This document shows, in pieces, positions 3,651-26,550 of a stretch of 39,147 nt of DNA. The position numbers were made by a program, and so were the translations under genes. Source of the stretch: Methanosphaera stadtmanae. Its GTDB lineage: Archaea; Methanobacteriota; Methanobacteria; Methanobacteriales; Methanobacteriaceae. Numbering within the stretch: position 1 is the first letter of the stretch; each line of letters starts with the position of its first letter. The stretch lies in assembly GCA_015062815.1 (NCBI GenBank), contig SUTP01000006.1, positions 1 through 39,147 of the forward strand, given 5' to 3'. A model generated the notes under the pieces. It saw only the letters and a list, made by a program, of their open reading frames with translations. It did not search any database and was not told the DNA's origin.

Positions 3651-3737
3651 AAAATATTTAAGAAGTATAACACAAGTTACTACAAAACCACTAAAAACTT
3701 TAAAAACCTTGAAGATATATAATTAATAGGTGTTTAG

Positions 3738-8431: not shown

Positions 8432-8935
8432 TCTCCTTATAATAATTTTTTTTACTTCATTTAAATTTAAATAATGATTAAATAAATAATATTTTTATTA
8501 AATAACTTCAATTATTTAATTATATAAAATACATTATTTTAATAGATGATTTAATTTAATAATTTATAAGAATAATAGATACATGAATTCACGAAAAAAA
8601 TAAAGAAATAAAGAATTTACATGAAAAGAACTTAAAAACCCTTAGAAAATTAATTTTCTTCCTATACTTCTTTTTTATTTTAATTTAAGCTTTTTTAATC
8701 ATTTTTATCATACTTAAATATCTTTTTATATTTATTTTCTAATACTTATTTTCTATCTCTAATGAATTTTCTTATTAAATTTAAAATCAAAAATTTAACA
8801 TTAAGGTACTGCTTAAACAATACCATTGCTCTGTTAGAAAATATATTATAAATATTTAAAAAAACAAAGTATTAATTGTATAATATTTTTATTTAATTTT
8901 CTTTTAGATAAATATTTTATATGGAGATTAAAATT
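8432..8935. other. Intergenic region before the amino-acid transporter
   Basis: About 500 AT-rich bases. A perfect 16-base palindrome AGAAAATTAATTTTCT lies at 8644-8659 with T-rich sequence behind it, possibly a terminator for the cupin gene. A TATA-like TATTATAAATATT near 8843-8855 is a likely promoter for the transporter operon. No gene is seen. Confidence 0.45.
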
Positions 8936-9766: not shown

Positions 9767-9785
9767 ATAATTAAGAGAGGTTTTT

Positions 9786-10436
9786 ATGTCATTAGTTACA
9801 ATGATACCTCAATTAGCAGAAGGTATGCTTACTTCCATAATGATATTTGCTCTTACATTACTTTTTTCTCTCCCTTTAGGACTTGTAGTTGCCGGAGGTA
9901 GAAAAAGTAATTATCGAATCATAAGCATGATTACACGTGCATATATCTCAATTATGAGAGGTACACCTTTAATGTTACAATTAATTGTAATATTCTTTGC
10001 ACCATATTACATATTTGGTTTTTCACTTTCAAGTGACTATAGGATGATTGCAGTTATTATAGCATTTTCAATTAATTATGCTGCTTACTTTGGTGAAATA
10101 TACAGGGGAGGTATAGAATCTATACCTAAAGGTCAGTACGAAGCTGCTGAAGTATTAGGTTATACTAGAATACAAACATTCTTCCGTATAATTTTACCAC
10201 AAGTTATAAAGACAGTATTACCTTCAATTACAAATGAAGTGATTACACTAGTAAAAGATACATCACTTTCTTTTGTAATAGCAGTACCCGAAATGTTCAC
10301 AATAGCAAAACAAATAGCAGCAGCTGATGCATCAATTAATGCACTTCTTGTTGCAGGTATATTCTATTATGTTTTCAATGTTGTAGTTGCAAGAGTAATG
10401 GTACATATTGAACAAAAACTAGATTATTACGAATAG
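9786..10436 (+). CDS. Polar amino-acid ABC transporter, permease
   Basis: A 216-residue inner-membrane permease of the His/Glu/Gln/Arg (HisM-type) family with about five hydrophobic segments. It has the N-terminal family signature ([15 protein letters not shown]) and the EAA loop that docks the ATPase ([19 protein letters not shown], residues 117-135). Only one permease gene is present, so the channel is presumably a homodimer. AGAGAGG precedes the ATG. It is the middle gene of the three-gene importer operon, 10 bases ahead of the ATPase gene. Confidence 0.93.
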
Positions 10437-10446
10437 GAGGAATATC

Positions 10447-11130
10447 ATGAGTTTATTAGAAGTTAAAAATCTTAAGAAAAGTTTTGATGATAATGAAGTT
10501 CTAAAAGATATTTCTTTTAATGTAAACGAAGGAGAAGTACTATGTATTATTGGTCCTTCAGGGTCTGGTAAATCTACAGTACTAAGAATACTAACCAAAC
10601 TTGAAACTAAAGATAGTGGTGAAATTAATTTTGATGGAACATTTGGATTAGTATTCCAAAACTTCAACCTTTTTCCACATTATTCAGTAATGAAAAACAT
10701 AAGTGATGCACCCATTAATGTCCAAAAAAGAGACAAAAAAGAAGTTGAAAAAGAAGCAAAAGAATTGCTTAAAAAAATGGGTTTAGAAGATAAAGCAGAT
10801 GCATATCCATGTGAATTATCAGGTGGACAGCAACAGAGAGTATCTATTGCTCGTGCTTTAGCTATGAATCCTGATATTTTATACTTTGATGAGCCTACTT
10901 CTGCATTGGATCCTGAATTAACTGGTGAAATACTTAATGTTATGAAAGATTTGGCAGAAGAAAATATTACTATGGTTATTGTTACTCATGAAATGAATTT
11001 TGCAAAAAATGTAGCAGATAATATAATATTCATGGATAATGGGGTTATAGTAGAAGAAGGTACTCCTGAAGAAGTATTTAATTCAGATAATGAAAGAATG
11101 CAATCATTCTTAGGTAAATTCCAGGATTAG
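10447..11130 (+). CDS. Polar amino-acid ABC transporter, ATPase
   Basis: A 227-residue ABC ATPase. Walker A is GPSGSGKST (36-44), the Q-loop Gln is 71 ([13 protein letters not shown]), the signature is LSGGQQQR, Walker B is [12 protein letters not shown] and the switch His is in VTHEMNFA. It powers the importer. The stretch between Walker A and the Q-loop is about 15-20 residues shorter than usual for this family ([11 protein letters not shown] directly after GEI), an in-frame loss that leaves all catalytic motifs. AGGAGGAA lies before the ATG. A strong hairpin terminator overlaps its stop codon. Confidence 0.93.
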
Positions 11131-11305: not shown

Positions 11306-12709
11306 TTAATGGGACTCTAATTTTTCATACTCTTTCTTGAATTTCCTAACTAATTCAATATCATCATTAATCATTATATTGAAGAGTCCCTTTATCAATA
11401 TTTTATTAATATTTAAAACTATTTCTTCAGGCTTAAATATTTTCTTAGTTTCTAATAGAATACCCTTATAATCAGGTTTATTATTGAAATCTTTCTTAAA
11501 CTCTTCTTTTATTTCATACCTCCATTGTTTAGGAATAAATTCTTCAAAAATTAAGGTAATATCTTCTGCAAAACTATTTCCTAATATCACATAATAATCA
11601 ATTTTCTCCTTATTCTTCTTCATATCAACATCCTTTAACAGCATATTAAATGATCCATAATTTTGATATCCGAATGGTACATATCGTCCTTCAACAGAAT
11701 GTGCACAATATTCATTCATTATCCTATAATATCTTGTATTTAAAATACTATAAAATGAAATAGCCTCAATTGCATCGGTTTTATCACTGTTTAATATATA
11801 CATTAATGATTGAGTAAATATTTTTGAAAGAATATGATGACTTAATTCATGAATAATAGTAGATATTTGACCTGATTTATCCAATCTATCATCAACATGA
11901 ATTATATTGAATTTATAATAACCTAATTCTGCACCTTTACTCTTATATTCTATACTTGCATAGGATAATCCTAAAATAAGTATTTTCTTAAATACTGAAA
12001 GTTCATCTAGATTAATATTATTTTCTTTAACTATTTGCCTGAAGTTTTTCTTTCCTTCTTCTTTAATATTATATAATATTTTTTCATATTCTGATACTGT
12101 TAATTGATGATTTTCAATTGATTTAATTCTTTCAGGATTAAAAATATTTTCAAATTTATTTAAATCTGTAACTGTTTTAAAGTCATCTTCACTTAATGAT
12201 TTCATATTTAACTTAATAGTATCATCTTCTTCAATAATTAAGTTATCACCAGATTTTTTTATTGTGTTTTCTTCATTGAATGAATTTAACAAATCATCAA
12301 TCTTAATCTTCTTATCCTTAACATCCTCTACATTTTCTATTACTTTATCTTTAGCAGAATATATTTTTTTAATCTTTCTTTTAATCATTAAAGCTTCTGG
12401 ATTTTTAGAATCATTTTTCAGTGCAATATCACAGTACAATAATGATTTTTTATAATTTTTAGCTAAATATAATAAATGTGCCTTACCGCTCCATGCTAGA
12501 GAATTACTATTATCATACTTTAATGCCCTGTTAAATGAATAATATGCTTTTTCAAAATCTTTTAATTTAGCTAAACAATATCCTGAAAGTACCCAAACAC
12601 AGGAATTTTCTTTATCATCCCTTAATATTTCTTTTAAATACTTGATTGCTTTTTTATAATTCTTTAATTTAATATTATCCAATGCTTTTATTAATAATTC
12701 ATTATTCAT
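11306..12709 (-). CDS. TPR protein with HELSH metallopeptidase-like motif
   Basis: A 467-residue protein. Residues 1-115 hold three tetratricopeptide repeats (KNYKKAIKYLKEILRDDKEN and two similar units), used for protein binding. A charged linker (120-185) follows. The C-terminal half contains STIIHELSHHILSKIF with HExxH at 287-291 and a downstream MNEYCAHSVEGR that may supply a third, Glu zinc ligand (E333 or E340), as in gluzincin peptidases. Peptidase activity is inference; no known family was recognised. AGGTGA precedes the ATG. It is the last gene of the leftward Hsp70/kinase block, so it may act on, or be delivered by, that machinery. Confidence 0.7.
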   Translation of the reverse strand: MNNELLIKALDNIKLKNYKKAIKYLKEILRDDKENSCVWVLSGYCLAKLKDFEKAYYSFNRALKYDNSNSLAWSGKAHLLYLAKNYKKSLLYCDIALKNDSKNPEALMIKRKIKKIYSAKDKVIENVEDVKDKKIKIDDLLNSFNEENTIKKSGDNLIIEEDDTIKLNMKSLSEDDFKTVTDLNKFENIFNPERIKSIENHQLTVSEYEKILYNIKEEGKKNFRQIVKENNINLDELSVFKKILILGLSYASIEYKSKGAELGYYKFNIIHVDDRLDKSGQISTIIHELSHHILSKIFTQSLMYILNSDKTDAIEAISFYSILNTRYYRIMNEYCAHSVEGRYVPFGYQNYGSFNMLLKDVDMKKNKEKIDYYVILGNSFAEDITLIFEEFIPKQWRYEIKEEFKKDFNNKPDYKGILLETKKIFKPEEIVLNINKILIKGLFNIMINDDIELVRKFKKEYEKLESH

Positions 12710-12771
12710 TTATTTCACCTGAAAAGTAATAAAAAGGTAGGGGCTTATCTTATCACAGTGTTTAAACTTGA

Positions 12772-13530
12772 TTAATCTAAAAATTTTATATTAGCCAATA
12801 CATCATCCATATTATTTATTGGCTTAGATAAATTAATGTCAAGATATGCTTTATCTACTGTTCCAAAACTGGAAGATAAAATCAATTGATTACCATAAAT
12901 CATATATGCATTGACCACTGTATGACCCACTATCATACAGTTAGAACCAATAATTTTTAAAAAATTATCAACATCTTCTTCATTATAATTAACATCATAA
13001 CGATTCCATAAGAAATCATAAAGAGGTTGAAAATTATAATCATTGTAAAAGATTTCATTAAAATCATTCATTGATTTAACTAATTTTGAAGGACCTGTAT
13101 GTGATATAAATAATCCATTAGCTGTTTTTACAAAAAAGGGCATTGATTTAAAATATTCCACATACTCTGATAAATAAGGTTCTAAGCTTCCCTTTTTTTC
13201 AATTATTAAATTTTCAAAATCATTTGTTTGATTCTGATATCCCTTAAAAACTGGAGTACCAGTAATATGACTCCATTCATGATTTCCTAGAAGAGGATGG
13301 AAATTAGAATATTTCTTATCTTTTTCAATAACATCTTCAATAATTTCAATGGATTTATCATCTTCATAAATGGAATGAATGAAATCTCCAACAAATACTA
13401 AATGAAAATCTGGATTATTACAATCCCATAAATTTATGTATTTCTCATAATCCTCTAAATCACCATGTAAATCCGTGACTATTAAAAGACGACCTTTATC
13501 CGGTAATTTAATAAATTTTTTTGTATTCAT
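12772..13530 (-). CDS. PPP-like metallophosphoesterase (protein phosphatase type)
   Basis: A 252-residue calcineurin-fold phosphoesterase. The metal-binding motifs appear in order: DLHGD (D20, H22), GDFIH (D49), GNHE (N83, H84), SHTGPS and GHTVV. The DxHG, GDxx and GNHE arrangement is that of PPP-type Ser/Thr phosphatases and ApaH-like enzymes; GDFIH replaces the usual GDxVDRG, so it is a divergent member. Start at the ATG at 13530, with GGCGAT just before it; the ATG at 13536 overlaps that site. Lying on the same strand as a Ser/Thr kinase gene five kilobases upstream, it is the natural candidate to reverse that kinase's phosphorylations (inference). Confidence 0.82.
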   Translation of the reverse strand: MNTKKFIKLPDKGRLLIVTDLHGDLEDYEKYINLWDCNNPDFHLVFVGDFIHSIYEDDKSIEIIEDVIEKDKKYSNFHPLLGNHEWSHITGTPVFKGYQNQTNDFENLIIEKKGSLEPYLSEYVEYFKSMPFFVKTANGLFISHTGPSKLVKSMNDFNEIFYNDYNFQPLYDFLWNRYDVNYNEEDVDNFLKIIGSNCMIVGHTVVNAYMIYGNQLILSSSFGTVDKAYLDINLSKPINNMDDVLANIKFLD

Positions 13531-13614
13531 AATCATCGCCTAAAAAAAAAATTAAAAAAAGTGTTTTATTATTTCACATTAAAGCTGGTACACGGATTTC
13601 TTAATAAATGATTT

Positions 13615-13881
13615 TTAATCCCTACGAGGAAAATGACAAACTTTCTTAAGTAAATCGTTAGGATTTCCTACTTCAATAAATATAAATTCAGTTAATTCTT
13701 TCCTTAATTTTTCTAATTCATATTCATTATTATTTGTAACAGCTTCATTAATATCATCTGATATTCTGTCTAATTTCTGTTGTAACAGAATTTTCTTAGA
13801 ATCATCAGTTAAATTATTAATTTTTTCTTGAGCTTCATCTCTTAGATTTTGTACTTCTTTAAAACATTTTTCTGTTTTCAT
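13615..13881 (-). CDS. Stand-alone copy of the Hsp70 C-terminal lid fragment
   Basis: An 88-residue protein that is almost entirely a copy of part of its neighbour. From residue 8, EVQNLRDEAQEKINNLTDDS and the following 55 residues align closely with Hsp70 residues 701-773. A run of 42 bases (13810-13851) is identical to 14294-14335. It has its own ATG at 13881 and an AGGAGAT site, 46 bases after the Hsp70 stop. It ends differently (KKVCHFPRRD). It may be the debris of a tandem duplication or a working small protein that mimics the Hsp70 lid. The intact start and ribosome site favour expression. Confidence 0.65.
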   Translation of the reverse strand: MKTEKCFKEVQNLRDEAQEKINNLTDDSKKILLQQKLDRISDDINEAVTNNNEYELEKLRKELTEFIFIEVGNPNDLLKKVCHFPRRD

Positions 13882-13927
13882 AAAATCTCCTAAAAAAAAT
13901 ATTATAAAGAAATATTTTATTATACTA

Positions 13928-16438
13928 TTATATAAGTCCTCCTGGAATTTCAAAACCACCAGAACCTCCAATATTAGTTGAAAGTTCTGCAAGTTGTTGT
14001 ACAACATTTACTAACATTTCAAAATCATCTTCAGCAAGTGCTTTCATACCTGCCTGTTTTAAATCATTGACAATACGAAGGTCTTCATCCTTATATTCTC
14101 CTTCCATAATTAAATAAAGGGCAAGTTGTTTAAGTAATTCTTTAGGATCCTCTACTTCAGTAGCTATGAATTCAACTAATTCTTCCTGTAACTTTTCTAA
14201 TCCATAGTCATCATTATTTCTAACAGCTTCATCAACATCGTCCGATATTCTGTCTAACTTTTGTTGTAATTCGAACTTCTTAGGACTATCACCTAAATTA
14301 TTAATTTTTTCTTGAGCTTCATCTCTTAGATTTTGAAGTTGTTTAGGTTTATTTGAGGAGTCTAATAACTTTTCAATTAAATCTAATTTATTATTTAAAT
14401 CATTTATACGCTTATCTGCTTGATTTATTGCAGCATCATCATTTTCTGCTGTTTTAATAAAAGTATCTATATCATTGAGAATATTTTCATCTTCTATTTC
14501 TTTCCAGTATTGGTTTATTTTGGCATTATTAGTAATTTGTTTACACTTAGATTGTAATTCATTCATTCTATCTTTAGCAGCCTGATATTTTTGTTTAACA
14601 ACCCCAATATCAGAAGGTAAATCTGGAATAATTTTACAATCAAAGCTTTGATCAAGCTCAGGAATTGTTACATCAATCGTGATTATACGTGATTCATCAA
14701 TATTTACTTTTAATGCTACTTCACTTCCTTTATCTAAATTATTATCTACATCTAATCCTGTGATTTTTAATTCACCGACTTTTGTATTTCTAGATGCTAC
14801 TTCATAAGTACCATTATACAATGGAACTATTACATATGTAGAACTATCACCCTTTACTATATCTGTTGATGTTTTGAAAATTTCCATATTATCATAAGGT
14901 ATAGGAGAACCTTCTTTAGCTAGTACAAATAATGTATCATCAGCTAATCCTAATCCTAGTGTATGTGGAAGAATATCTTTTGGAGGAGCTATGTCACATT
15001 TATAAATTATAGCATTAGGAGAATTTTCACTAATTTCCACTAAACTACCATTTGCATCAAATACATCAATAGAATATGTATTTTCAATATCTTCAGGAAG
15101 TAATTCAAATTCAAAATATCCATCCTCTTCTATTGGAACTTTACCTGTGGTAGTTTCTGTTTTTATATTAGTTACCTCAATTTCAAATCCTGTGAAATCA
15201 TCAACATTATCTGATAATAATGTACCGAAAACAAAGAATTCAACATCTTTTGGACCTGTTGTATTATAATCTAAATCAATACCAAAAGAACCTTCATGTG
15301 GTGGTATATCATTATTTTCATCAATTAATGTTCCTGCATATATTGCTGCTCCTTTAGCTACTACTGTAACAGGATCTAAATTATATTTTAAAGGTTTGTT
15401 AAATTCATTTTCTAATCTATCCCTAATTATAGGACTGAGAGTGGAACCTCCTACAAGAATAATAGAATCAACATCATCCATTGTTAATGAAGCTTTACTT
15501 AATGCATCTTTACAATGATTTATTGTCCTGTTTATAAAGGAATCCATAGTATTTTTAAGTTCTTCCTTAGTTAAGGTATATTCAAAATCATAAATTTCAT
15601 CATTATTAACTAGTAGAGTTTCTATAAATATGTCTGCTTCATTTTGTGTTGATAAAGTTTTTTTAGCATCTTCAGCAGCACCTTTAAGCTTAGCAAATGG
15701 TTTACTATATTTATTATTACTTCTTTCAAAATCAGATATATTTAAATCATTTTTTACTTCTTTAACAAGAATATTATCAACAAGTGCATCATCTATTAAT
15801 TTTCCACCAAGATATTCATCACCAGAATGAGATACATGATTAAATTCATCACCATCTAATCTAACAACAGATACATCGAATGTACCTCCACCAAAATCAT
15901 AAATTAACCAAATACCTTCATCTTCTTTACTTGCATTTTTTCCATAAGCATAAGCGGCTGCTACAGGTTCCATTATTAAACTTGTATTTTTAAATCCTGC
16001 AAGTTTAGCTGCTTCTATAGTTGCTTGTGTTTGATGTGGACCAAAGTCAGCTGGAACTGTGATTACTACAGAGTTAACTTTTGTATTTATTTGTTTATCA
16101 ACTGAATTTCTTAATTCTTTTAATACTTCTGCAGATAATTCTTCTGGAGAATATTCATTACCGGAACGTTTAAATTTATATTTTTTAGGTACTCCCATAT
16201 CTAATTTGAATTCGCCTCTAGCATTATCTGAACTTCTTATATATTCATTTTTAGCCTTATTACCTACAATAATATGTCCCCTTTTATCTTCAGCTACCAC
16301 AGAAGGTGTGAAATTCATATTACTTGTATAATTAGGTATTACCTCTGTATCATTTCCTACAACGTGAGCTATAATTGAGGTTGTTGTTCCTAAATCAATT
16401 CCAAAATCCACTGTATTAGTCCTTAATTGCTTTGTCAT
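13928..16438 (-). CDS. Hsp70 (DnaK-like) chaperone with inserted domain
   Basis: An 836-residue Hsp70, longer than the usual 600-650. The ATPase domain covers residues 9-372 with FGIDLGTTTS, IYDFGGGTFDVSVV and ILVGGSTLSPIIRDRL. About 110 residues (375-485) rich in beta strands are inserted before the substrate domain, which resumes at ILPHTLGLGLADDTLFVLA and runs to about 608. Coiled helices (610-820) and a Gly-rich tail (GGSGGFEIPGGLI) follow. It binds and releases protein clients under ATP control. GrpE-like, J-like and Clp genes lie upstream on the same strand, giving a full chaperone set. Start at the ATG at 16438 after TGGTGA; the ATG at 16450 overlaps that site. Confidence 0.93.
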   Translation of the reverse strand: MTKQLRTNTVDFGIDLGTTTSIIAHVVGNDTEVIPNYTSNMNFTPSVVAEDKRGHIIVGNKAKNEYIRSSDNARGEFKLDMGVPKKYKFKRSGNEYSPEELSAEVLKELRNSVDKQINTKVNSVVITVPADFGPHQTQATIEAAKLAGFKNTSLIMEPVAAAYAYGKNASKEDEGIWLIYDFGGGTFDVSVVRLDGDEFNHVSHSGDEYLGGKLIDDALVDNILVKEVKNDLNISDFERSNNKYSKPFAKLKGAAEDAKKTLSTQNEADIFIETLLVNNDEIYDFEYTLTKEELKNTMDSFINRTINHCKDALSKASLTMDDVDSIILVGGSTLSPIIRDRLENEFNKPLKYNLDPVTVVAKGAAIYAGTLIDENNDIPPHEGSFGIDLDYNTTGPKDVEFFVFGTLLSDNVDDFTGFEIEVTNIKTETTTGKVPIEEDGYFEFELLPEDIENTYSIDVFDANGSLVEISENSPNAIIYKCDIAPPKDILPHTLGLGLADDTLFVLAKEGSPIPYDNMEIFKTSTDIVKGDSSTYVIVPLYNGTYEVASRNTKVGELKITGLDVDNNLDKGSEVALKVNIDESRIITIDVTIPELDQSFDCKIIPDLPSDIGVVKQKYQAAKDRMNELQSKCKQITNNAKINQYWKEIEDENILNDIDTFIKTAENDDAAINQADKRINDLNNKLDLIEKLLDSSNKPKQLQNLRDEAQEKINNLGDSPKKFELQQKLDRISDDVDEAVRNNDDYGLEKLQEELVEFIATEVEDPKELLKQLALYLIMEGEYKDEDLRIVNDLKQAGMKALAEDDFEMLVNVVQQLAELSTNIGGSGGFEIPGGLI

Positions 16439-16474
16439 ATCTTTCACCATTAATTTATTTATCGATTTTAAAAA

Positions 16475-17374
16475 CTATTCTTCTTGAGCTAGAGTAACGT
16501 AAACTTCTGCTTTTAAGATTTTTTGATTCTTATAATATATCTCTGGTTTTACTGTTTCAGAGATGATATCCTCTTTAATATTTGAATCATGTTCAAATGC
16601 CTTAACATCTATATTTTTATTTACTGAGTATGTTTCTCCTGTTAAATCCCTAATTTCAAAACCATATTTTGATAATTTTAATAAAATTATTTCATATTGT
16701 CTGACAATAGAATTTATTGGTCTTAAACTGTCTTTAATAATATTTTTAGCCTGTTTGATTTCTTCTAACTGATTTTTTAATTCATTAATCTTTTGATTAA
16801 GTTGTTCAATTTGAATATCATCATCAACAACTATAATATCTTCATCCATTTGATCTACAGATTCAGTTTCATCTGATGTATCCCTATTTATTACCACATC
16901 ATCAACAGCACTTGATTGACCTATTTTGTTTTGAATCTCATCTATATTATCCAGTAATATTTTTTCTTGATTTGTTAAAATATCATTTAAAGTAGCTGAT
17001 TGATTATTTTCCTGGTATTCTTTAGCTGTATTTCCAATTTTCCATAAATTAGTTATTAATTCTGCTATCTCTTTTAATGAAGGATTCGACTTTTGAATAT
17101 CTTCTACTAATCCTATTAAAACTTGTTGTACTTCTGATAATCTATTGTTTAATATGATTTCCATTCCTGAAGAGGATTTTTTGATTCTATTAGAAGGATA
17201 TTGCTGATTTACATTATATTGCCTGGTCTGATTTTTTTTATTAATTTGAATATTCTGGACCTGTTTATAAGCATCAGAATATTTATCATTTTTTTTAGAA
17301 TCCTTTTTATCATTTTTATTGAAAAATGATTTTGATACTCTATCAAATAGATTATTCTTTTTATTATCTCCCAT
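16475..17374 (-). CDS. GrpE-like nucleotide-exchange protein (divergent)
   Basis: A 299-residue protein. Residues 1-70 are Lys/Asn/Gln-rich and disordered. A coiled coil spans about 186-213 (IEQLNQKINELKNQLEEIKQ). Residues 230-297 resemble the GrpE head: LLKLSKYGFEIRDLTGE, then PEIYYKNQKILKAEVYVTLA, matching the GrpE order of a Gly-containing helix end and a final strand of the type Y...A.V.V. GrpE dimers release ADP from Hsp70; the gene lies 36 bases upstream of the Hsp70 gene, which supports this role. The match is to fold and context rather than clear identity, so it remains a prediction. GGTGAT precedes the ATG. Confidence 0.6.
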   Translation of the reverse strand: MGDNKKNNLFDRVSKSFFNKNDKKDSKKNDKYSDAYKQVQNIQINKKNQTRQYNVNQQYPSNRIKKSSSGMEIILNNRLSEVQQVLIGLVEDIQKSNPSLKEIAELITNLWKIGNTAKEYQENNQSATLNDILTNQEKILLDNIDEIQNKIGQSSAVDDVVINRDTSDETESVDQMDEDIIVVDDDIQIEQLNQKINELKNQLEEIKQAKNIIKDSLRPINSIVRQYEIILLKLSKYGFEIRDLTGETYSVNKNIDVKAFEHDSNIKEDIISETVKPEIYYKNQKILKAEVYVTLAQEE

Positions 17375-17429
17375 AAAATCACCATTAGAGTATTCCTAAT
17401 ATTTTAAATAATTATATTCAAATACCTGG

Positions 17430-18764
17430 TTATCCGAAAGGTTTAAAAATTACAATAATTAGTATTATAAATACAATTAGAGCCATTAATAGACACACAC
17501 AGCTTTGTGTTTGCTTTTTTTCATTCAACTTTTTTTGTTCTTCCTGTTTTACTGCTTCTTCATACATTCTTTTTAGTTCTTCTTGTTTTCTTCTTTCTTC
17601 ATCAGATGGTACATCTTTAATCATTTCTTTTAATTTAACAGCATTTTGTTTTAGATCTTCATCTGCAGCAAAACGACTTATAAATTCTAATATTTCAACT
17701 ATTTTTTGAATTTTATTATCAGTCATTGCATTAGACAAAAGTTCTTCATTATTTAGACAACTTAGCATTTTTTGACAAACAGAATCTCTCATTTTATTCG
17801 AAATACTATTATTATAGAATAAATCCTGTGTTAATATTTTCATGAATGGTTCAACATTATTCTCATACTCTACTAGTATATCTAATTTAGTAGAACCATA
17901 TGCTGAGTTAAATTTACCGTCAAATGAATCCCCAAGATTTTTAATTGAATGTTCAAATGTTTCCAATATTTTAGAAGCTGTTCTATTAATTAGTTTTGAA
18001 TCAAAAGATGATTCTTCAGTAGCATTTATTATACCATTAATTAACCTTAAATTCCTTTCAGAAATATTACTAGACTTTGATAGGTTTTTAATTAATGAAA
18101 TATTGATATTTAATAAATCTGCAGGCAACTGCTCGAAAATTTCATCCACATATTCATTAGTTAAACGAGGATCATTCAATGAATTAACCCTTTGTTTAAC
18201 AAAATTCTTAAAATTATTAGAACCTGATAAAATAAGAGACCAATATTTTATTGCATCAGTTAGATATACTACTGCATCATAATCTTCTTTTTCAAACAGT
18301 TCTAGTGCTCTGATATGATTTATTACTGCTAAATTATGAACTGATGTTGTGTTAGTTGATTCAGTTTTAGATTGAGATTCCCAATATTTTTTAGCACTAT
18401 CATAGTCATTGTTATTTAAATATTTTATTACAAATTCTTCTAATGGTTCTTCTAATGTTTTTGGCCAAAACCAAAATATTTCATCAAGTAATCTTGTTCT
18501 AACATCGGTTAATCTGTTTCTTGCATTCTGATAATCTATATATGATGGTGCTGGAGAAACTGGTAATAATAATGTAACATTTCCCTTATCAAATACTCCT
18601 TCCAATGGATTAGTATCATCATAGGATGCATCTTTTCTTTTGAACCTTTTCTTGTATGCCTCCACCTTAGTCATACGATTATCAATTATGTTGGTTTTAT
18701 CTGTGATATTTAATCCAAAAAGTCTAAAACCATTTATTTTATATATATTCTGATTAATTTCCAT
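17430..18764 (-). CDS. Tail-anchored J-like/helical-repeat protein
   Basis: A 444-residue protein. The N-terminus (INGFRLFGLNITDKTNIIDN, then RNRLTDVRTRLLDEIFWFWP, to residue 101) resembles J-like domains found with bacterial Hsp70 clusters, where a helix ending in a Trp-rich FWFWP follows; the HPD tripeptide that defines true J-domains is missing. The middle is all helical and TPR-like. Residues 385-420 form a Lys/Glu coiled coil, and 422-441 are a single membrane span (CLLMALIVFIILIIVIF) right at the C-terminus, so the protein should be tail-anchored facing the cytoplasm. It may bring Hsp70 to the membrane (inference). GGGGTAAG precedes the ATG, which lies 15 bases after the kinase stop. 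Confidence 0.6.
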   Translation of the reverse strand: MEINQNIYKINGFRLFGLNITDKTNIIDNRMTKVEAYKKRFKRKDASYDDTNPLEGVFDKGNVTLLLPVSPAPSYIDYQNARNRLTDVRTRLLDEIFWFWPKTLEEPLEEFVIKYLNNNDYDSAKKYWESQSKTESTNTTSVHNLAVINHIRALELFEKEDYDAVVYLTDAIKYWSLILSGSNNFKNFVKQRVNSLNDPRLTNEYVDEIFEQLPADLLNINISLIKNLSKSSNISERNLRLINGIINATEESSFDSKLINRTASKILETFEHSIKNLGDSFDGKFNSAYGSTKLDILVEYENNVEPFMKILTQDLFYNNSISNKMRDSVCQKMLSCLNNEELLSNAMTDNKIQKIVEILEFISRFAADEDLKQNAVKLKEMIKDVPSDEERRKQEELKRMYEEAVKQEEQKKLNEKKQTQSCVCLLMALIVFIILIIVIFKPFG

Positions 18765-18779
18765 TTTACTTACCCCATA

Positions 18780-20441
18780 TTACATTGCTAATCCTCTTTT
18801 CCATAACGAAAGTTTTGAAGAGTATTTATCTTTCTTATTTTCATCTGCTAGTACTATAAACTCCATTAATTTAGAAGCTTTGAATATGTTTTCTATGTTA
18901 TAATTGGATTTTCTCCTTAATTTTAAGGATTCCTTCTCAATGGTATCAATATCCCTGCTTTTAAGGGTATCCAGTATAGGTTCATATTCCTTCTTAATTT
19001 CATTGTTTTTATTAATTAATTCTTCCAGTGAGTTAACTGCTTTATCTAAATCATGGTCTTTACTTAAATTTGATAAAATATCATTCCATAATATTATATA
19101 TCCTTCATATGAATCCCTAAGACTTGGAGTATATGCTATGGCTTCTTCTAATAGTGTACTTGCTAAACTGTAATTTGAATCATTTTCACTGTATACTTTA
19201 AATGCTTCATCAATAAGTTTTCTGTCTGGCATTTCATCTTTCCATAATCTAAGTCGGTATGTATATTTTTCACGAATATACATATCTGAAATAATTAATC
19301 TCTCCAGAATTTCTATAGCTTCTTTTAATTTATTTTCCTGTTTAGCTAAGGCAAATGCCCTATTTAATGATTCTTCCACAGTTTCTGAAATATCATCAGT
19401 GACAATACTTTGCATTGTTTCAACTTGATTATCATCTTGATCTGAATTATATATACTGCCTGATGATGAACTTTGAGAAGTATAAATTATTGTAGTTTCA
19501 TCTACTCCTAAATTATCCATGTAATGATTAAGTGTATCTAAAAGTTCCCCTGCATTAGCATATCTTTGCCTTGGATCCATAGATAAACATTTTACCACCA
19601 TGTCATCTATCTCCTGTGTTACTTCTGAATTATAATTACTTGGTAATTCCAATTCATTTTCCCATGGTTTTCCAGCAAACAAATCATACATATCATAATT
19701 ATCAAGTTCAAATGGGAAACGATTAGTTAATAACTGATAAAAGATAACACCTACAGCATAAATATCACTCATAGTTGAGAATTTCTTTTTATAACATTCA
19801 GGAGCCATATATAATGGAGTACCTGCAACGGATACATTAGCCATAGTAGTAGCAGTTTCTTTAGCCAGACCAAAATCTGTTATTTTAATTAATGGTTTAC
19901 CATCATCAAATTCCACCATAAGATTTTGAGGTTTTAAATCCCTGTGAATAATCTTATTGGGATCATTTGAATGTAAAACATTTAATCCTATACATATTTG
20001 TTTCATTATGTCTATTACTTCAATTATAGGCATTAATCTGTTATGATTACGAAAAGACTTCCAATATTTCCATAAATCGCCTCCGGCAACATATTCCATG
20101 ATAAAATATGCATATTTTTCTTCACGATTTCCTTTTTTTCCACCAAAATTGAAGAATCCCTGTTTATCTTGTCCAAATATTGAAATAATACCTGCATCAT
20201 GTATACTTATAACATTCTGATGTCTTATTAAAGTAGCAAGTCTTGCTTCTTCAAATATTCCCTCAACTTTAGTATTAGGCTGTAATGGTTCCTTATTTAT
20301 TTTCATGGCACGACGATCAGATAAATATTTATGTCTTGTTAAATATACATCAGCAAAACCACCAGCTCCTAAGAAGTCTTCAACAATGTATTGACCTCTA
20401 AAATATTCTTCAACCATCTGTTTAATTTTACTTTGATTCAT
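18780..20441 (-). CDS. Ser/Thr protein kinase with C-terminal helical repeats
   Basis: A 553-residue Hanks-type kinase, uncommon in methanogens. All core motifs are present: Gly loop GAGGFADVY (25-33), catalytic Lys 47 (AMKINK), HRDLKPQN (166-173), DFG (189-191), activation segment GTPLYMAPE, and the C-lobe Asp in SDIYAVGV. It should be active. A linker (310-345) is rich in Ser/Asp, a possible autophosphorylation site. Residues 350-550 are TPR-like helices. There is no membrane span. Start at the ATG at 20441 with GGTGTAT before it. The Clp gene ends 12 bases upstream, so the two are co-transcribed. Likely targets are neighbours and the FHA protein (inference). Confidence 0.92.
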   Translation of the reverse strand: MNQSKIKQMVEEYFRGQYIVEDFLGAGGFADVYLTRHKYLSDRRAMKINKEPLQPNTKVEGIFEEARLATLIRHQNVISIHDAGIISIFGQDKQGFFNFGGKKGNREEKYAYFIMEYVAGGDLWKYWKSFRNHNRLMPIIEVIDIMKQICIGLNVLHSNDPNKIIHRDLKPQNLMVEFDDGKPLIKITDFGLAKETATTMANVSVAGTPLYMAPECYKKKFSTMSDIYAVGVIFYQLLTNRFPFELDNYDMYDLFAGKPWENELELPSNYNSEVTQEIDDMVVKCLSMDPRQRYANAGELLDTLNHYMDNLGVDETTIIYTSQSSSSGSIYNSDQDDNQVETMQSIVTDDISETVEESLNRAFALAKQENKLKEAIEILERLIISDMYIREKYTYRLRLWKDEMPDRKLIDEAFKVYSENDSNYSLASTLLEEAIAYTPSLRDSYEGYIILWNDILSNLSKDHDLDKAVNSLEELINKNNEIKKEYEPILDTLKSRDIDTIEKESLKLRRKSNYNIENIFKASKLMEFIVLADENKKDKYSSKLSLWKRGLAM

Positions 20442-20453
20442 AAGATACACCCA

Positions 20454-22754
20454 TTATATAACTTTAAATTTTAACTCCTGATTACTCATTAATATTAATA
20501 TGGTATCTCCAGATTCCACATCTGCCTCTATAATCATGTCAGATATTGGGTATTCCAGTTCCTTTTCAATAGTTCTTTTAAGGTATCTTGCACCAAAATT
20601 CTCATTATAGCCTTTATTACTAAGATATTCATATGCAGATTCATCAACATCAAGTTCTATAGATTTTTCTGAATATATACGACTAGATAATTCTTTAACA
20701 TATAATTTAACTAAATCTTTTTGAGCTGATTTAGTTAATGAATTAAATAGTATTACATCATCAATTCTATTAACTAATTCAGGTCTCATAACTTGAGCTA
20801 AATTATCCAGTATTTCAAGAGTGTTCATTTGTTCATTGTGACTATGATAACCATAGGCTACATCATATTCCTGATTTTCAAGTTGAATATTTGAAGTCAT
20901 GACAAAAATACAATTTTTAGCATTTACAGTCTTTCCTTTTCCATCAGTTAAGCGTCCTTCATCAAAAGCCTGTAAAAATATGTCAAAAATCTTAGGATGA
21001 GCTTTTTCTATTTCATCTAATAGAATCATTGAATATGGATTGTTTTTAATAGCATTAGTTAAAAATCCACCCTCTTCATTTCCTTTATAACCCGGAGGTG
21101 ACCCTATTAATTTTGAAATAGAATGTTCTTCTTTATATTCAGACATGTCAACTCGTATTAATGATTTTTCACTACCAAATAAATAAGATGCTAATACTTT
21201 AGAGAAATATGTTTTACCTACACCAGTCGGACCTAAAAATAGAAATATTGCCAATGGTTTTTCTGGATTACTAATACCCACATATGACTTTTTAATTCTT
21301 TTGGTGACTTTATCAACAGCTTGATCTTGTCCTATTATCTTTGACTTTAGGTAAGATTCAAGATTTTGAGCTTTTTCTAAATTAGATGATTCATCCATAA
21401 TAGGTATTCCTGTCCATTCTGATATTATTGTTTTAACATCCTCCTGACTGACAACCGTTTCAATATTTAAGGAATTGGTAATATCTAATTTTGGTATAAG
21501 TTTACGGGAACAGGCTTCATCAATAACATCTAATGCTTTATCTGGAAGATTTCTATCTGGAATATATCTTACAGTTAAATTCACAGCAGATTCTATTGCT
21601 TCATCAGAAATTTTTACATTATGATATTCTTCATAATTTTCCTTTAAACCCTTGAGAATTATTAATGTATCCTCTGGTGATGGTTCTCCTAAAACAACTG
21701 GTTGAAATCTTCTTTCAAATGCAGGATCTGTTTCAAAATATTTTGTATATTCACTTAAAGTAGTTGCTCCTATTACTACTAAATCACCATTGGTTAATGC
21801 TGGCTTTATAATATTTGAAGCATCTAAACTTCCACCAGAAGAACCTGCACCCAATATTGTATGAATTTCATCCATAAATACAATAATATCAGGATTTTCC
21901 TTAGTTTCTTTTACAAGTTTGGTGATTTTTTCTTCAAAGTCTCCACGATACTTTGTACCTGCTATTAATGATGCAATATTTATTTCAATAATTTCCTTAT
22001 CCTTTAATAGATTTTTCATACTTCCATCAGCGATTTTAATAGCTAAACCTTTGACTAGTGCTGTTTTTCCTACCCCCGGTTCACCTATAATTAATGGATT
22101 ATTCTTTTTTTGTTTGCTTAAAGTTCTAACAACTTGCAATAATTCATCATCTCTGCCAATTACTGGAGTTAATTTACCTTCTCTAGCTAATTGTGTTAAA
22201 TTTACACCATGTTTAACTAATATACTATTTTTAGATAATTTAGAATGATTATTGTCTTGTTTTAGTTTTAAACTGTCTTTCATATCATCCAAATTCATAT
22301 TATTATCTTCAAAAAAAGTTTTTATAATATCTGATGGATTATTTATAATAGCTTTGAGCAAATGAATACAAGTAATAGTATCACAATTACTATCTTCAGC
22401 AATATTATCAGCTATATTAAAAATATCTTTACAAGATTCTGATCTTGGAATCATATTTTTATCAGATTTGTATTCTCCTTTACCTTTTAAACTACGTATA
22501 CCTCTACGTATACTAGTTGGTTCTAAGTTAAATTGGGAAAAGAAGTCATTTATTTCATCATTTTCTGAATTTATAGTATCTGCATATTCTTCATCAAAAT
22601 TGACTTTATTTTCATTGATTAAATATACAATTTTTTCAATACTACAAATTCCCATTAATAATTCATCTTCTGAAAAAAATTCCTGATTAAGATTTTTAGC
22701 TTCAGCTGAACCTAATTCCCATGCTAAATAAGAACTTTTAGATAATTTAGCCAT
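20454..22754 (-). CDS. Clp/Hsp100 double-AAA unfoldase without middle domain
   Basis: A 766-residue class I Clp ATPase. An N-terminal Clp-N-like region (1-170) precedes AAA-1 with Walker A GEPGVGKT (224-231), VFMDEIH, pore loop KYRG (268-271) and arginine finger (347-349). AAA-2 has GPTGVGKT (508-515), LLDEIEKAHP and pore loop GYKG. The linker between the two modules is only about 40 residues, so the coiled middle domain of ClpB is absent, as in ClpA. It should thread and unfold proteins. No ClpP gene is present in the window and archaea generally lack one; YDVAYGYHS occupies the place of the ClpP-binding loop. First gene of the leftward run; GAAGGT precedes its ATG. Confidence 0.93.
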   Translation of the reverse strand: MAKLSKSSYLAWELGSAEAKNLNQEFFSEDELLMGICSIEKIVYLINENKVNFDEEYADTINSENDEINDFFSQFNLEPTSIRRGIRSLKGKGEYKSDKNMIPRSESCKDIFNIADNIAEDSNCDTITCIHLLKAIINNPSDIIKTFFEDNNMNLDDMKDSLKLKQDNNHSKLSKNSILVKHGVNLTQLAREGKLTPVIGRDDELLQVVRTLSKQKKNNPLIIGEPGVGKTALVKGLAIKIADGSMKNLLKDKEIIEINIASLIAGTKYRGDFEEKITKLVKETKENPDIIVFMDEIHTILGAGSSGGSLDASNIIKPALTNGDLVVIGATTLSEYTKYFETDPAFERRFQPVVLGEPSPEDTLIILKGLKENYEEYHNVKISDEAIESAVNLTVRYIPDRNLPDKALDVIDEACSRKLIPKLDITNSLNIETVVSQEDVKTIISEWTGIPIMDESSNLEKAQNLESYLKSKIIGQDQAVDKVTKRIKKSYVGISNPEKPLAIFLFLGPTGVGKTYFSKVLASYLFGSEKSLIRVDMSEYKEEHSISKLIGSPPGYKGNEEGGFLTNAIKNNPYSMILLDEIEKAHPKIFDIFLQAFDEGRLTDGKGKTVNAKNCIFVMTSNIQLENQEYDVAYGYHSHNEQMNTLEILDNLAQVMRPELVNRIDDVILFNSLTKSAQKDLVKLYVKELSSRIYSEKSIELDVDESAYEYLSNKGYNENFGARYLKRTIEKELEYPISDMIIEADVESGDTILILMSNQELKFKVI

Positions 22755-22992
22755 CCAATACCTTCTACATAATTTAATAATTTATGTTTAAAGTTTTATT
22801 GATATTGCTTTATAACATGAATAAAGTAATTCATTTATAGAAGATATATACAATTAAATTAAAAATAAGTTTATAAGAAAGATTTAAACTAATCATTTTA
22901 TAAAATTAAGAGAAATTATTTGGAATATTAATAATCTGAGTTAAATTATATTTAAATAAGTCTTTTAATTAAACAAAAGTAGGAGGTTTAAT

Positions 22993-23385
22993 ATGAATAG
23001 TACACAAATAAATATAGCCCGCTGTGCTGGTCGAATAGTAGCAGCTGTTGTATTGAGTATTATTGCTGCATTGATTCTGGGAGCTATATCACATTTCATA
23101 TTTGGTGATTGGAATATCGCAATAATCTTTGTATTTATTCTAGTAGCTGCTTCATCAAGTGGACCTAGTATAACTGATATTGAATCAAAAAGTCTATTAA
23201 TTATTACTGGTATTATCGGTTCAATAATTGTATATTATCTAATAAGAATAATTTTACCTATGGTATTTGGTCCAGCATATGTTTTCCCATTCTCATTATT
23301 TGGATTAGGAGAATATATAACAGGTTTAATTATTACAATAATTATTGGAATATTAACTTCATTACTCGTATGGTCTTATAATTAG
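22993..23385 (+). CDS. Four-span small membrane protein
   Basis: A 130-residue, very hydrophobic protein with about four membrane segments: residues 14-38, 41-55, 66-90 and 105-127. It has short polar loops (SSGPSITDIESKS) and almost no charged residues. I do not recognise a family. A strong AGGAGG at 22981-22986 precedes the ATG. It is transcribed away from the Clp gene, sharing the 238-base promoter gap with it, and converges on the HTH-FHA gene 42 bases away. Its place inside the chaperone/kinase block suggests a linked role, perhaps as membrane partner, but nothing in the sequence proves it. Confidence 0.7.
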   Translation: MNSTQINIARCAGRIVAAVVLSIIAALILGAISHFIFGDWNIAIIFVFILVAASSSGPSITDIESKSLLIITGIIGSIIVYYLIRIILPMVFGPAYVFPFSLFGLGEYITGLIITIIIGILTSLLVWSYN

Positions 23386-23427
23386 TCTGTAATGAGTTTA
23401 AATTATTTTATTTTTTTTTAGAAACTT

Positions 23428-24207
23428 TTAATAGGAACAGAAAATAATTGCAGAGCCTCCTCCCCTTGATAACTTAAGGAAAGTATTATTTTTTAATTTA
23501 GTTACAATTCCATTCTTAATTTTTCTATTTGAAATATATGTTCCATTAGAACTATTTTCATCTAGAATACACCAGTTATTATTTTCATAAAATATTTTTA
23601 AATGAGGTTTATCCACTTTGGAAACACTATAATATTCACTGTTTAAAATAATATTTGTTTGAGAATTATCAATTTTTTTACTTGATTTCCGACCAATATG
23701 AACTATATCCTCTTTATTAAGTTTGAAAGTTTTTCCTTTATCTGAACCATTAAAAATAGTTAAAATACAATGTTTACCATCAAAATCTTTTTGATTTTCT
23801 TTGAATAAATCAAAAAAACCTATTAATTCATCTGATAAAAAGGTTATCTCTAAAAAAAAGTCTTCAAAAGCATCTACCTTTAATGCATAAACATTAACCT
23901 GTCTTGGTCCTACTTTATTAGGTATTTCTTTTTTAATTTGAATTATTTCTATTAATCCTGCATCACAAAGTTGTTTCATGTGTTGACCTAACATTTGAGG
24001 ACTGATTACAATATCATATTTATTTTTAAGAATAATATTTATTTCACGTGAATATGGATAATCATTTAAAGAATCAGCATTTTTCTGATAATCTCTTAAT
24101 ATTTCTAATATACTAAACCTGACATTATTATCTACTGCTGCCAATTTGTGAAATATTTTATTTAATTCTAAACTTCCTACAAATTCTGTTTCTTCTGTAT
24201 ATGTCAT
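23428..24207 (-). CDS. Winged-helix DNA-binding protein with FHA domain
   Basis: A 259-residue protein with two parts. Residues 15-115 form a winged helix: FHKLAAVDNNVRFSILEILR, recognition region ISPQMLGQHMKQLCDAGLIE, and a wing with PRQVNVYAL. Residues 146-259 form a forkhead-associated domain that binds phosphothreonine, with IGRK (R173), a Ser/His pair in SVSKVDKPHLKIF and SSNGTYISNRKI (N221). The fusion suits a regulator that reads the state of a Ser/Thr kinase, and such a kinase is encoded 3 kb away. It faces the block from upstream, in the same orientation. AGTGAT precedes the ATG. Likely target promoters are those in 22755-22992 (inference). Confidence 0.88.
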   Translation of the reverse strand: MTYTEETEFVGSLELNKIFHKLAAVDNNVRFSILEILRDYQKNADSLNDYPYSREINIILKNKYDIVISPQMLGQHMKQLCDAGLIEIIQIKKEIPNKVGPRQVNVYALKVDAFEDFFLEITFLSDELIGFFDLFKENQKDFDGKHCILTIFNGSDKGKTFKLNKEDIVHIGRKSSKKIDNSQTNIILNSEYYSVSKVDKPHLKIFYENNNWCILDENSSNGTYISNRKIKNGIVTKLKNNTFLKLSRGGGSAIIFCSY

Positions 24208-24683
24208 TTAAATCACTTTAAACGATTTTATCCCCATATAATTTTTTGAGTTTTTTTAAGATGTTTTATTATTCATTTACCCTATTATCCACTAAATAAA
24301 AATGATTTAAAAATTTTAAATTTATAATTAAATGTATCATGTTAAATGTATTTAAGTAGAATAAAGATAATACTTTATACTAAAATAAGTATTAGTTAAT
24401 ATTGAATTAATCATTTTCCCCCCCCCCTTTTATTTTAAAAATCATGATATATGAGAATAATTAAAAATAATTGATTTATTAGAGATTTTAGTTTATTATT
24501 TCTAGATTAATAAAAAAGTAGTGTTTTAAATTTGAAAAATAAATTTTAATTAATAAATGTTTTATAAAATTGTTGATATGTCAACTTTATATACTAGCAT
24601 ATATAAACATATATAATAGTTGATAAGTCAACATTTTATTTTTATTATAAATTATTTTATCAAATATTAAAGAGGTGAATTTT
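24208..24683. other. Divergent intergenic region with C10 tract
   Basis: About 475 bases between the leftward HTH-FHA gene and the rightward MarR operon. It contains a run of ten C at 24418-24427 in otherwise AT-rich DNA, and the two operator palindromes of the MarR gene near its right end. No gene is seen. Confidence 0.6.
24572..24632 (+). promoter_or_regulatory. MarR operon promoter flanked by twin palindromic operators
   Basis: GTTGATATGTCAAC (24572-24585) and GTTGATAAGTCAAC (24619-24632) share the arms GTTGA and TCAAC and differ by one central base. They lie 47 bases apart, centre to centre. Between them is a TATA-like ATATATAAAC at 24599-24608. Transcription would begin near the second site. 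MarR-family dimers bind such palindromes, and here they would block both TATA recognition and the polymerase. Confidence 0.75.
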
Positions 24684-25172
24684 TTGGATAGATGTATGTT
24701 AAAAAATGATGAATGGCTCAATAATAAACACATAGGCCCATTAATATCCATTATCAAACGTTCACAGACAATTTATTTAAATCATAATCTTCAAGATTAT
24801 AATTTAGGAAACGGACAAGCATTCATACTCAGAAAATTATATTCTTGTAGCCAAGATAATAAGATAAATCAGGATTTTTTTGTGAAACATTTCCAAATTG
24901 ACAAAGCATCTATTGCAAGAAGTATTAAAAAATTAGAAGAAAGAAACTATATAGAACGAAAAATTGATCCAAACAATAGACGCCAATATTTAATTTCACT
25001 AACTGATGAAGGAAAAAATATTGCTGAAGAAATTAAAAGATATGAAGAAGAATGGGAAAATTACATATACGAAAAATACCCTAATGAAAAAGAAGTACTT
25101 TTAAATAATCTAAAAGAAATGGCAATATTATCCTTAGAACTAATTGAAAAACAGGAGGAGAAAAATGAGTGA
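24684..25172 (+). CDS. MarR family transcriptional regulator
   Basis: A 162-residue MarR protein. Helical dimer arms surround a winged helix (about residues 55-100): NQDFFVKHFQIDKASIARSI, KKLEERNYIERK, wing PNNRRQYLISLTDEG. Members usually repress exporter genes and let go when a drug or phenolic ligand binds. I choose the TTG at 24684, because AGGTGA at 24673-24678 sits five bases before it. GTG at 24675 lies inside that site, and the ATG at 24696 is too far away. It overlaps the exporter gene by 8 bases, so the two are translationally coupled. Two palindromes upstream are probable operators. Confidence 0.88.
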   Translation: MDRCMLKNDEWLNNKHIGPLISIIKRSQTIYLNHNLQDYNLGNGQAFILRKLYSCSQDNKINQDFFVKHFQIDKASIARSIKKLEERNYIERKIDPNNRRQYLISLTDEGKNIAEEIKRYEEEWENYIYEKYPNEKEVLLNNLKEMAILSLELIEKQEEKNE

Positions 25173-26550
25173 AGTTGTTCCAAAAAATAAATCACAAAAA
25201 AATATAGACTTAATTAGAGGAGATCCAAAAGTAGCTATTAGAAAACTATCTGTTCCAACAATGATGTCCATGATATTAATCATGCTTTATAACTTAGCAG
25301 ATAGTTTATGGGTGGCTGGACTCGGTGCTGATTCACTTGCAGCATTAGGATTCATCACACCATTATTTATGATATTAATCGGTGTAGGTAACGGTATAGG
25401 AGCAGGTGCCACATCATTAATTGCACGTGCTATAGGAGCTAAAAATAAAAAATTAGCAGATAATGCTGCAGCACATAGTGTAGTATTTGCAGTAATAATA
25501 TCATTAATAATACCTATAATACTTATCCCATTTTTAAAGGATATCCTATTAACCATGGGTGCTGGAAATACTTACCAGTATGGTTTAGCTTATGGTAATA
25601 TAGTATTCCTTGCAATGATAGTATTCATATTATCCGGTGTACTATCCGCATTACTAAGAGCAGAAGGTGATGTAAACAGGTCAATGTATGCCATAGCAAT
25701 AACTGCCATATTAAATATAGTAATAGACCCATTATTTATTTACACATTAGGGTGGGGTATAGCTGGAGCAGCATTAGCTACCGTATTATCTTCATTAATA
25801 TCTGTAATAGTAATGGCATATTGGATATGGGGTAAAAATGATACATACCTCAAAATCACAAAAAGTAATTTCGAATATAAAAACTCAATTCTTAAAGACA
25901 TATCATTAGTAGCTATACCTAACATGACAGAAACAGTGGTATTTTCCATAATGATAATGTGTATAAATGCAATGCTAACAATGGTTGGAGGAACAACAGA
26001 AGTAGCAGCATTTAGTGCAGCATCAAGAATAAATCAATTCGCTATGATTCCATTAATAGGAATTGGAACAGCAATGCTAACAGTAGCTGGAGCAGCATTT
26101 GGTTCTAAAGATTATGATAAACTAAGTGAAGCACACAGTTATTCAATTGTATTTAGTTACATAATATCAATAATACTATGTATAATAATGTTCTTTGGAT
26201 CAGACTATATCTCAATGATATTTACATACACAGACCAAAGTGCAGCATTATCACCACTGATTTCAAACATACTTAGAATACTATGTTTCTTCCTATTAGC
26301 AATACCAGCAGGTATGATGTCTGCAATGACATTCCAAGGAGTAGGAAAAGGAATGACATCTCTTGCAATAACAATATTCAGAGCATTACTTATAGAAATA
26401 GCATTAGCTTATATATTAGGTATTGTACTAGGATTAGGAGTAAATGGTATATATTCAGGTATGGTATTAGCAGCAGTTGTAGGTACTATTGTATCCTATG
26501 GATGGTGTAAGTTATACTTAAACCGATTAAAACGAAATTATTATTCTTAA
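25165..26550 (+). CDS. MATE family efflux transporter (MarR-controlled)
   Basis: A 461-residue exporter with about twelve hydrophobic segments. MATE signatures are DPKVAIRKLSVPTMMSMI, LGADSLAALGFITPLF, GNGIGAGATSLIARAIG and VAGAAFGSKDYDKL. It is a paralogue of the protein at 1459-2802; the first 60 residues align almost throughout. It should export drugs or metabolites using an ion gradient. The ATG at 25165 follows AGGAGGAG; the first ATG in the frame, at 25144, lies well inside the MarR gene. It shares the MarR promoter, so a toxic compound that releases MarR would induce it. A T-run at 26559-26566 after the stop may end transcription. Confidence 0.93.
   Translation: MSEVVPKNKSQKNIDLIRGDPKVAIRKLSVPTMMSMILIMLYNLADSLWVAGLGADSLAALGFITPLFMILIGVGNGIGAGATSLIARAIGAKNKKLADNAAAHSVVFAVIISLIIPIILIPFLKDILLTMGAGNTYQYGLAYGNIVFLAMIVFILSGVLSALLRAEGDVNRSMYAIAITAILNIVIDPLFIYTLGWGIAGAALATVLSSLISVIVMAYWIWGKNDTYLKITKSNFEYKNSILKDISLVAIPNMTETVVFSIMIMCINAMLTMVGGTTEVAAFSAASRINQFAMIPLIGIGTAMLTVAGAAFGSKDYDKLSEAHSYSIVFSYIISIILCIIMFFGSDYISMIFTYTDQSAALSPLISNILRILCFFLLAIPAGMMSAMTFQGVGKGMTSLAITIFRALLIEIALAYILGIVLGLGVNGIYSGMVLAAVVGTIVSYGWCKLYLNRLKRNYYS

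Follow-up and report, generated by a model that had tools for sequence, protein, structure and literature searches.

A recurring Hsp70-Clp gene block with kinase, phosphatase and FHA regulator in Methanosphaera stadtmanae, a predicted chaperone-based conflict system

The nearest published ideas to the gene block described here are the HSP70/GrpE/DnaJ theme of the GAP1-N2 GTPase-centric conflict systems (Kaur, Burroughs, Iyer, Aravind, 2020; PMC7159879) and the Hsp70-bearing CoCoNuTs, of which type III combines the Hsp70-like CnuD proteins, for which degenerate Walker A-like motifs are reported, with TerY-P kinase/phosphatase (PMC11090510). The block occupies positions 11,306 to 24,207 of a 39,147-nucleotide stretch of DNA from Methanosphaera stadtmanae (contig SUTP01000006.1 of assembly GCA_015062815.1; the whole stretch is called the window below), and encodes an Hsp70 variant, GrpE-like and J-like partners, a Clp unfoldase, a Ser/Thr kinase, a phosphatase and a regulator with helix-turn-helix (HTH) and FHA domains. 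We are highly confident that the block is a functional module, and the module itself is predicted to be a chaperone-based conflict system. Full-text searches of the open-licence literature found no description of the module as a unit, and no kinase-Hsp70 fusion of the kind found in its relatives.

Similar to the GAP1-N2 systems, the block shows chaperone-based, phosphorylation-linked themes known from predicted conflict systems, and it shares with them a dedicated HSP70 accompanied by GrpE and a J/TPR protein, sometimes with a second Hsp70 reduced to the nucleotide-binding domain (also present in one related locus, L090). In contrast to them, the Hsp70 is joined here by a kinase, an FHA regulator, a phosphatase and Clp, and the partners are TIR, RyR and STAND proteins. 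Membership of the GAP1-N2 class was considered and rejected: in 21 genomes GAP1-M was never encoded on the contig bearing the J-like gene, and eight of these genomes encode it elsewhere. In the CoCoNuTs, too, a predicted defence locus brings together an Hsp70-like protein, a phosphatase and a Ser/Thr kinase, whereas no McrB/McrC-like gene was seen at the loci scanned here, and the Hsp70 variant aligns to DnaK across the whole nucleotide-binding domain and comes with GrpE-like and J-like partners. In component classes and probable biochemistry, the block recalls the DnaK-DnaJ-GrpE-ClpB bichaperone; however, its J-like protein lacks the HPD motif, a domain replaces the interdomain linker of its Hsp70, its Clp protein has no M-domain, and the machine is coupled to kinase, FHA protein and phosphatase, while canonical dnaK and dnaJ are encoded separately. 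Finally, TIR proteins linked to related loci have preserved the Glu of the catalytic position, with RyR domains as plausible partners, as in Thoeris and other TIR-based NAD-signalling defence; here, however, TIR and RyR are variable neighbours outside the conserved core, none of them in the window.

The host is a gut or rumen-type methanogen, and its assembly (2.0 Mb in 147 contigs) is 88% complete. The features of the block are as follows, with lengths in amino acids (aa).

23428..24207, minus strand: HTH-FHA protein, 259 aa (FHA PF00498, 5.2e-10)
22993..23385, plus strand (divergent): small multi-spanning membrane protein, 130 aa (phmmer matches in L050-L053)
20454..22754, minus strand: Clp AAA+ unfoldase with two ATPase modules, 766 aa (AAA_2, 1.5e-60; ClpB_D2-small, 1.2e-18)
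18780..20450, minus strand: Ser/Thr protein kinase, 556 aa (Pkinase, 1.5e-48)
17430..18764, minus strand: J-like protein, 444 aa (alignment of 33 homologues, AlphaFold, hhalign to DnaJ)
16475..17374, minus strand: GrpE-like nucleotide-exchange factor, 299 aa (AlphaFold and Foldseek; PF01025 in a relative)
13928..16450, minus strand: Hsp70 variant, 840 aa (HSP70, 2.7e-82, residues 16-377)
13615..14007, minus strand: partial duplication of the Hsp70 3' end, the 'lid fragment' (83% identity over 218 nt)
12772..13536, minus strand: calcineurin-like phosphoesterase or PPP-like phosphatase, 254 aa (Metallophos, 3.8e-12)
11306..12709, minus strand: TPR protein with a HELSH metallopeptidase-like domain, 467 aa (TPR, 8.3e-10; Peptidase_M78, 0.013, weak)

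All reading frames of the initial annotation lie at the positions and on the strands it gave, and its domain assignments hold in Pfam. From Clp through kinase, J-like and GrpE-like protein to Hsp70, the open reading frames are separated by 3, 15, 55 and 24 nt. The HTH-FHA gene, which had been counted as a member of the block, lies 0.67 kb from clp; given the divergent membrane-protein gene in between, its transcript is probably separate, although in relatives it usually adjoins the kinase-Hsp70 gene. The lid fragment, listed at the outset among the parts of the block, has no counterpart in relatives; it arose locally by duplication of part of the 3' end of the Hsp70 gene and is probably a remnant, and a functional role for it is not supported.

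The order Clp, kinase, J-like, GrpE-like and Hsp70, with the phosphatase near Hsp70, recurs in Methanosphaera and Methanobrevibacter loci (L049-L053), and the same gene order is found in independent genomes, some of them 99% complete. This conserved order rules out a chance cluster. The initial annotation had made its reading depend on a conserved neighbourhood, and gene order is indeed kept in relatives, where kinase and Hsp70 are even fused. The TPR-HExxH protein accompanies the block in the subtype of loci to which the window belongs. Two differences concern small membrane proteins: homologues of the divergent gene at 22993..23385 sit directly upstream of clp and on the same strand in Methanobrevibacter (L050-L053), and the window lacks a further gene of this kind that L049-L053 have between the phosphatase and TPR genes.

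Many Methanobrevibacter genomes encode kinase and Hsp70 as one protein of ~1170 aa (Pkinase at 18-282, HSP70 at 528-879; L066, L067, L068 and L131-L135). The HTH-FHA gene normally lies immediately upstream of the fusion gene, and phosphatase and RyR-domain genes, which L134 lacks, follow it in most fetched loci. In genus g9, kinase and Hsp70 are separate genes, and an APAF1-like DUF4062-AAA-WD40 (STAND/WD40) protein adjoins this FHA-kinase-Hsp70 form. The fusion and its neighbourhood of HTH-FHA and phosphatase genes are the best evidence that kinase, Hsp70, FHA protein and phosphatase are one functional set; from the fusion, an Hsp70 under direct phospho-control is predicted. Across the family sample of 139 Methanobacteriaceae genomes, Hsp70 variant and HTH-FHA gene co-occur in 29 of 30 genomes (7.8 expected; Fisher 3e-22), where, as in all neighbour statistics below, related genomes count as independent and shared ancestry is ignored. 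Co-occurrence within 15 kb, a check proposed with the initial annotation, was found for the HTH-FHA gene at 29 of 41 Hsp70-variant loci, mostly at ~2.6 kb centre to centre; outside the family, a kinase is nearby in 7 of 21 loci. Evidence for kinase-FHA wiring is thus good, by association.

In the Hsp70 variant, the nucleotide-binding domain (residues 16-382) matches DnaK (1e-61 to DnaK structures); a second, very weak DnaK match marks the substrate-binding beta domain, which starts at ~492, and the C-terminus is extended and helical. It lacks the short hydrophobic interdomain linker, in place of which archaeal and bacterial members alike carry a conserved, beta-looking insert of ~110 aa (382-492). 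In known Hsp70s, the interdomain linker transmits allostery, and the insert is therefore the best handle on any special mechanism. The GrpE-like protein of the window has no Pfam match of its own, while a homologue from Dehalococcoidia (Chloroflexi) matches PF01025 at 9.6e-4, below the curated cut-off. Its AlphaFold model, built with 27 homologues, supports a GrpE fold: the nine best PDB matches in Foldseek are all GrpE (best E 5e-4), and the C-terminal beta domain is conserved. Low global template-modelling scores are expected given the disordered N-terminus and the mobile stalk.

The J-like protein of the window has no Pfam match and does not reach PF00226. At least 33 proteins form its family, which has an invariant DE..WFW core that reads FWFWP in most of them; the AlphaFold model (predicted local distance difference test score 93) begins with four helices, continues as an alpha-solenoid and ends in a membrane helix. 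The N-terminus is collinear with DnaJ J-domains in a weak match (score 19.4 versus at most 12.3 in 30 shuffles), the HPD motif is absent from this protein and from all 33 homologues aligned, and whole-protein Foldseek, dominated by the solenoid, found no J protein. PDB profile searches with the archaeal alignments gave no significant match. A collinear but weak and HPD-less match makes 'J-like' a fair name and leaves 'J-domain co-chaperone' unproven. Both the J-like and the GrpE-like protein are divergent versions of their classes, as had been proposed. In the Clp protein, the D1 lid leads straight into D2, without the ClpB M-domain, in all members aligned, and the ClpB-equivalog score is 736 against a cut-off of 1232. 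It is the only AAA_lid_9 (ClpA/B-type) ATPase found in the 88%-complete assembly; canonical dnaK and dnaJ lie on a different contig (C90).

The signalling proteins appear intact. The kinase retains its catalytic motifs (HRDLKPQN at 169, DFG at 192) ahead of a helical C-terminal half, and those relatives that were checked keep the motifs too, apart from one fused copy with DLG. The phosphatase has the metal-ligand motifs D.HG, GD..H, GNHE and GHTVV, conserved among relatives. In the HTH-FHA protein, the C-terminal FHA domain carries the phosphopeptide-binding residues GR..S..H..NG, conserved in 11 sequences, and the N-terminus resembles an ArsR/TrmB winged helix by eye, without a Pfam match. 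The TPR protein, a candidate effector of the window subtype, has HEL[STA]H and NEYCAH motifs that are invariant in 6 sequences; the weak M78 match covers HELSH. A second HTH-FHA gene of the host (locus L158, contig C8; the region includes 408-1104 and 3069-3845) stands without an Hsp70, near what by eye is an MNT-HEPN-like toxin-antitoxin pair and transposase fragments.

Distribution of the module is patchy. Within the family, 14 of the 139 genomes carry the J-like gene, and no other genus in the phylum sample has it. The DnaK of the host shares 87% identity with the DnaK of G115, from the same genus, and 75% with that of G041, from another genus, whereas its Hsp70 variant shows the reverse (48% and 59%, respectively); in genus g10, hosts with DnaK proteins 95-98% identical to each other have Hsp70 variants that share only ~39%. 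This conflict points to horizontal exchange or to old paralogous subtypes. Some copies are kinase-less or decayed (L054, L058). Kinase and Hsp70 genes are split into several open reading frames in L080 (6974-8062), L065 (10337-11733) and L058 (4839-10104), through either recurrent decay of the module or sequencing errors.

Outside Methanobacteriaceae, a scan of 84,980 species genomes for the J-like family yielded 21 loci; counts of J-like loci are lower bounds, since the scan used two short, degenerate patterns. The carriers are Lentisphaerae, Sumerlaeota, Actinomadura, Chloroflexota, Thermodesulfobacteriota, Accumulibacter, Verrucomicrobiota, Vicinamibacteria, Thiodictyon, Chlorobiaceae and the archaeon Methanothrix. 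A reduced core of J-like, GrpE-like and Hsp70 genes, often with a kinase, thus occurs sporadically in ~10 bacterial groups and Methanothrix, and the system that the initial annotation had framed as archaeal is no archaeal speciality. The Hsp70 variant stands beside the J-like gene in 18 of the 21 loci; in the remaining three, the contig stops there or close by. Clp is nearby in one. In a Dehalococcoidia locus, an FHA and winged-helix gene lies upstream of the kinase. Prevalence is low in Chloroflexota (one clear and one marginal match in 400 genomes).

The variable neighbours of the module bear on its function. A TIR gene lies directly upstream of clp, with a gap of 3-47 nt, in four loci (L056, L057, L059, L060), and TIR genes occur within 12 kb of 7 of 41 Hsp70-variant loci against 0.9 expected, again with shared ancestry ignored. 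The aligned linked TIR domains keep a Glu at the NADase catalytic position, from which we infer NADase activity. RyR domains are encoded within 15 kb at 17 of the 41 loci (Fisher 3e-14, kinship likewise ignored), a TIR-RyR protein adjoins the operon in L054, and a TIR-beta-helix protein flanks the distant Methanothrix locus. Two TIR domains and RyR domains occur in one archaeal chain in L054 (15843-19133) and L135 (1437-4649). DUF4062-AAA-WD40 proteins of ~1570 aa have an NLR-like layout (L062, 2124-6887; L063, 481-5166, the latter with an APAF1-like helical match). The Methanobrevibacter-like genome G096 has 26 TIR_2 matches, far above most relatives.

We propose that the block is an accessory operon, spread by horizontal exchange, that encodes a private Hsp70 machine for protein remodelling, controlled by phosphorylation. 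The Hsp70 variant would work with a dedicated GrpE-like exchange factor, with the J-like protein as its membrane-anchored partner and with the Clp unfoldase. The kinase, or an Hsp70-kinase complex, might sense a proteotoxic or membrane event and phosphorylate the chaperone machine, the HTH-FHA protein or both; the phosphatase would reset the system, and the FHA protein would read the phospho-mark and adjust transcription. The chaperone might hold or release a variable client, the effector, which would differ by type: the TPR-HExxH protease in the window, and TIR, TIR-RyR, RyR or STAND/WD40 proteins elsewhere. The initial annotation had suggested a regulated remodelling or conflict/stress system, and the conflict half of that proposal is strengthened by TIR genes inside the operon, by RyR and STAND/WD40 proteins next to it, by the patchy distribution and by horizontal exchange; the role itself stays predicted. 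An antiviral or cell-fate role in conflict is the most likely one for this phosphorylation-controlled machine, at odds that we judge to be about even, and an immune role is what we infer from these neighbours. Unlikely as a complete scheme is a chaperone-guarded immune switch, in which the kinase-fused or kinase-linked Hsp70-GrpE-J-like-Clp machine would keep TIR, RyR, STAND or protease effectors poised, as Hsp70/Hsp90 do with eukaryotic NLRs; in some types, TIR might make an NAD-derived signal read by the RyR protein, in parallel to cyclic ADP-ribose and the ryanodine receptor, and the FHA factor would tune expression to kinase output.

Several observations weigh against a conflict role. No defence island is visible in the window, and PADLOC 2.0 matched no complete anti-phage system there, returning only generic kinase and AAA matches. 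The window has no TIR or RyR gene, no RyR was found in the host assembly, and the single TIR gene of the host is on a different contig, next to an apparent type I restriction system. Two bacterial queries found no J-like relatives on plasmids, and none of four stretches of viral contigs that fit the J-like pattern is a relative. Classical J stimulation is unlikely without HPD, and the neighbour statistics overlook kinship. Conflict role, phosphorylation, transcript unity and partner interactions are all predictions from gene content.

It is possible, if on the unlikely side, that the block is instead a specialised chaperone for quality control or envelope biogenesis, in which the membrane-anchored J-like protein would recruit Hsp70 and Clp for folding, export or recycling of large adhesin-like surface proteins, with kinase, phosphatase and FHA protein as an ordinary stress regulator. 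The terminal membrane helix of the J-like protein fits this idea, as do adhesin-like beta-helix or Ig proteins near several loci, beta-helix repeats fused to linked TIR proteins, OmpA/TPR proteins after Hsp70 in some bacterial loci and an HExxH protease suited to quality control. However, adhesin-like genes are common in these genomes, TIR, RyR and STAND domains would be unexpected in a folding machine, and the very patchy distribution and horizontal exchange also speak against it. The patchy distribution likewise disfavours a general disaggregase island for heat or oxygen stress, which would give the cell its sole Clp disaggregase and a further Hsp70, with signalling genes merely controlling expression: the operon is absent from most relatives. 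Hsp70, GrpE and Clp are classical partners and no second ClpA/B-type ATPase was found in the host assembly, but Hsp70 engages ClpB through the M-domain missing here and canonical dnaK and dnaJ are encoded elsewhere, which makes such an island improbable.

The post-translational switch of type VI secretion systems has the same four regulator classes (ClpV, FHA, kinase and phosphatase), and the Clp protein scores 611 bits with the TssH/ClpV model. This score is under the cut-off of 885 and under the ClpB and ClpA scores, and no sheath, tube or baseplate gene was present among the Pfam-scanned open reading frames of the loci, which include part of the flanking ones; a type VI-like contractile apparatus is very improbable. 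Chance adjacency of unrelated genes in a low-quality metagenome bin, which the 147-contig assembly might suggest, is so improbable as to be negligible, being ruled out by identical order in independent, in part nearly complete genomes. Compared with these alternatives, a private Hsp70 machine that is switched by phosphorylation and would gate variable effectors is the best reading of the recurring module defined here: a linker-inserted Hsp70 with GrpE-like and HPD-less J-like partners, kinase, phosphatase and FHA regulator. Its associations with TIR, RyR and STAND proteins make it testable whether dedicated chaperones gate immune-type effectors in archaea and bacteria, as in eukaryotes with NLRs.

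The flanks of the block appear ordinary by eye, with an amino-acid ABC transporter at 8921-11130 and a MarR-like regulator and MATE-like efflux gene at 24675-26550 of the window. In L061 (14899-17847), a match to RNA polymerase Rpb1 domain 5 has 200 model positions spread across 770 residues, probably owing to a large insertion such as an intein.

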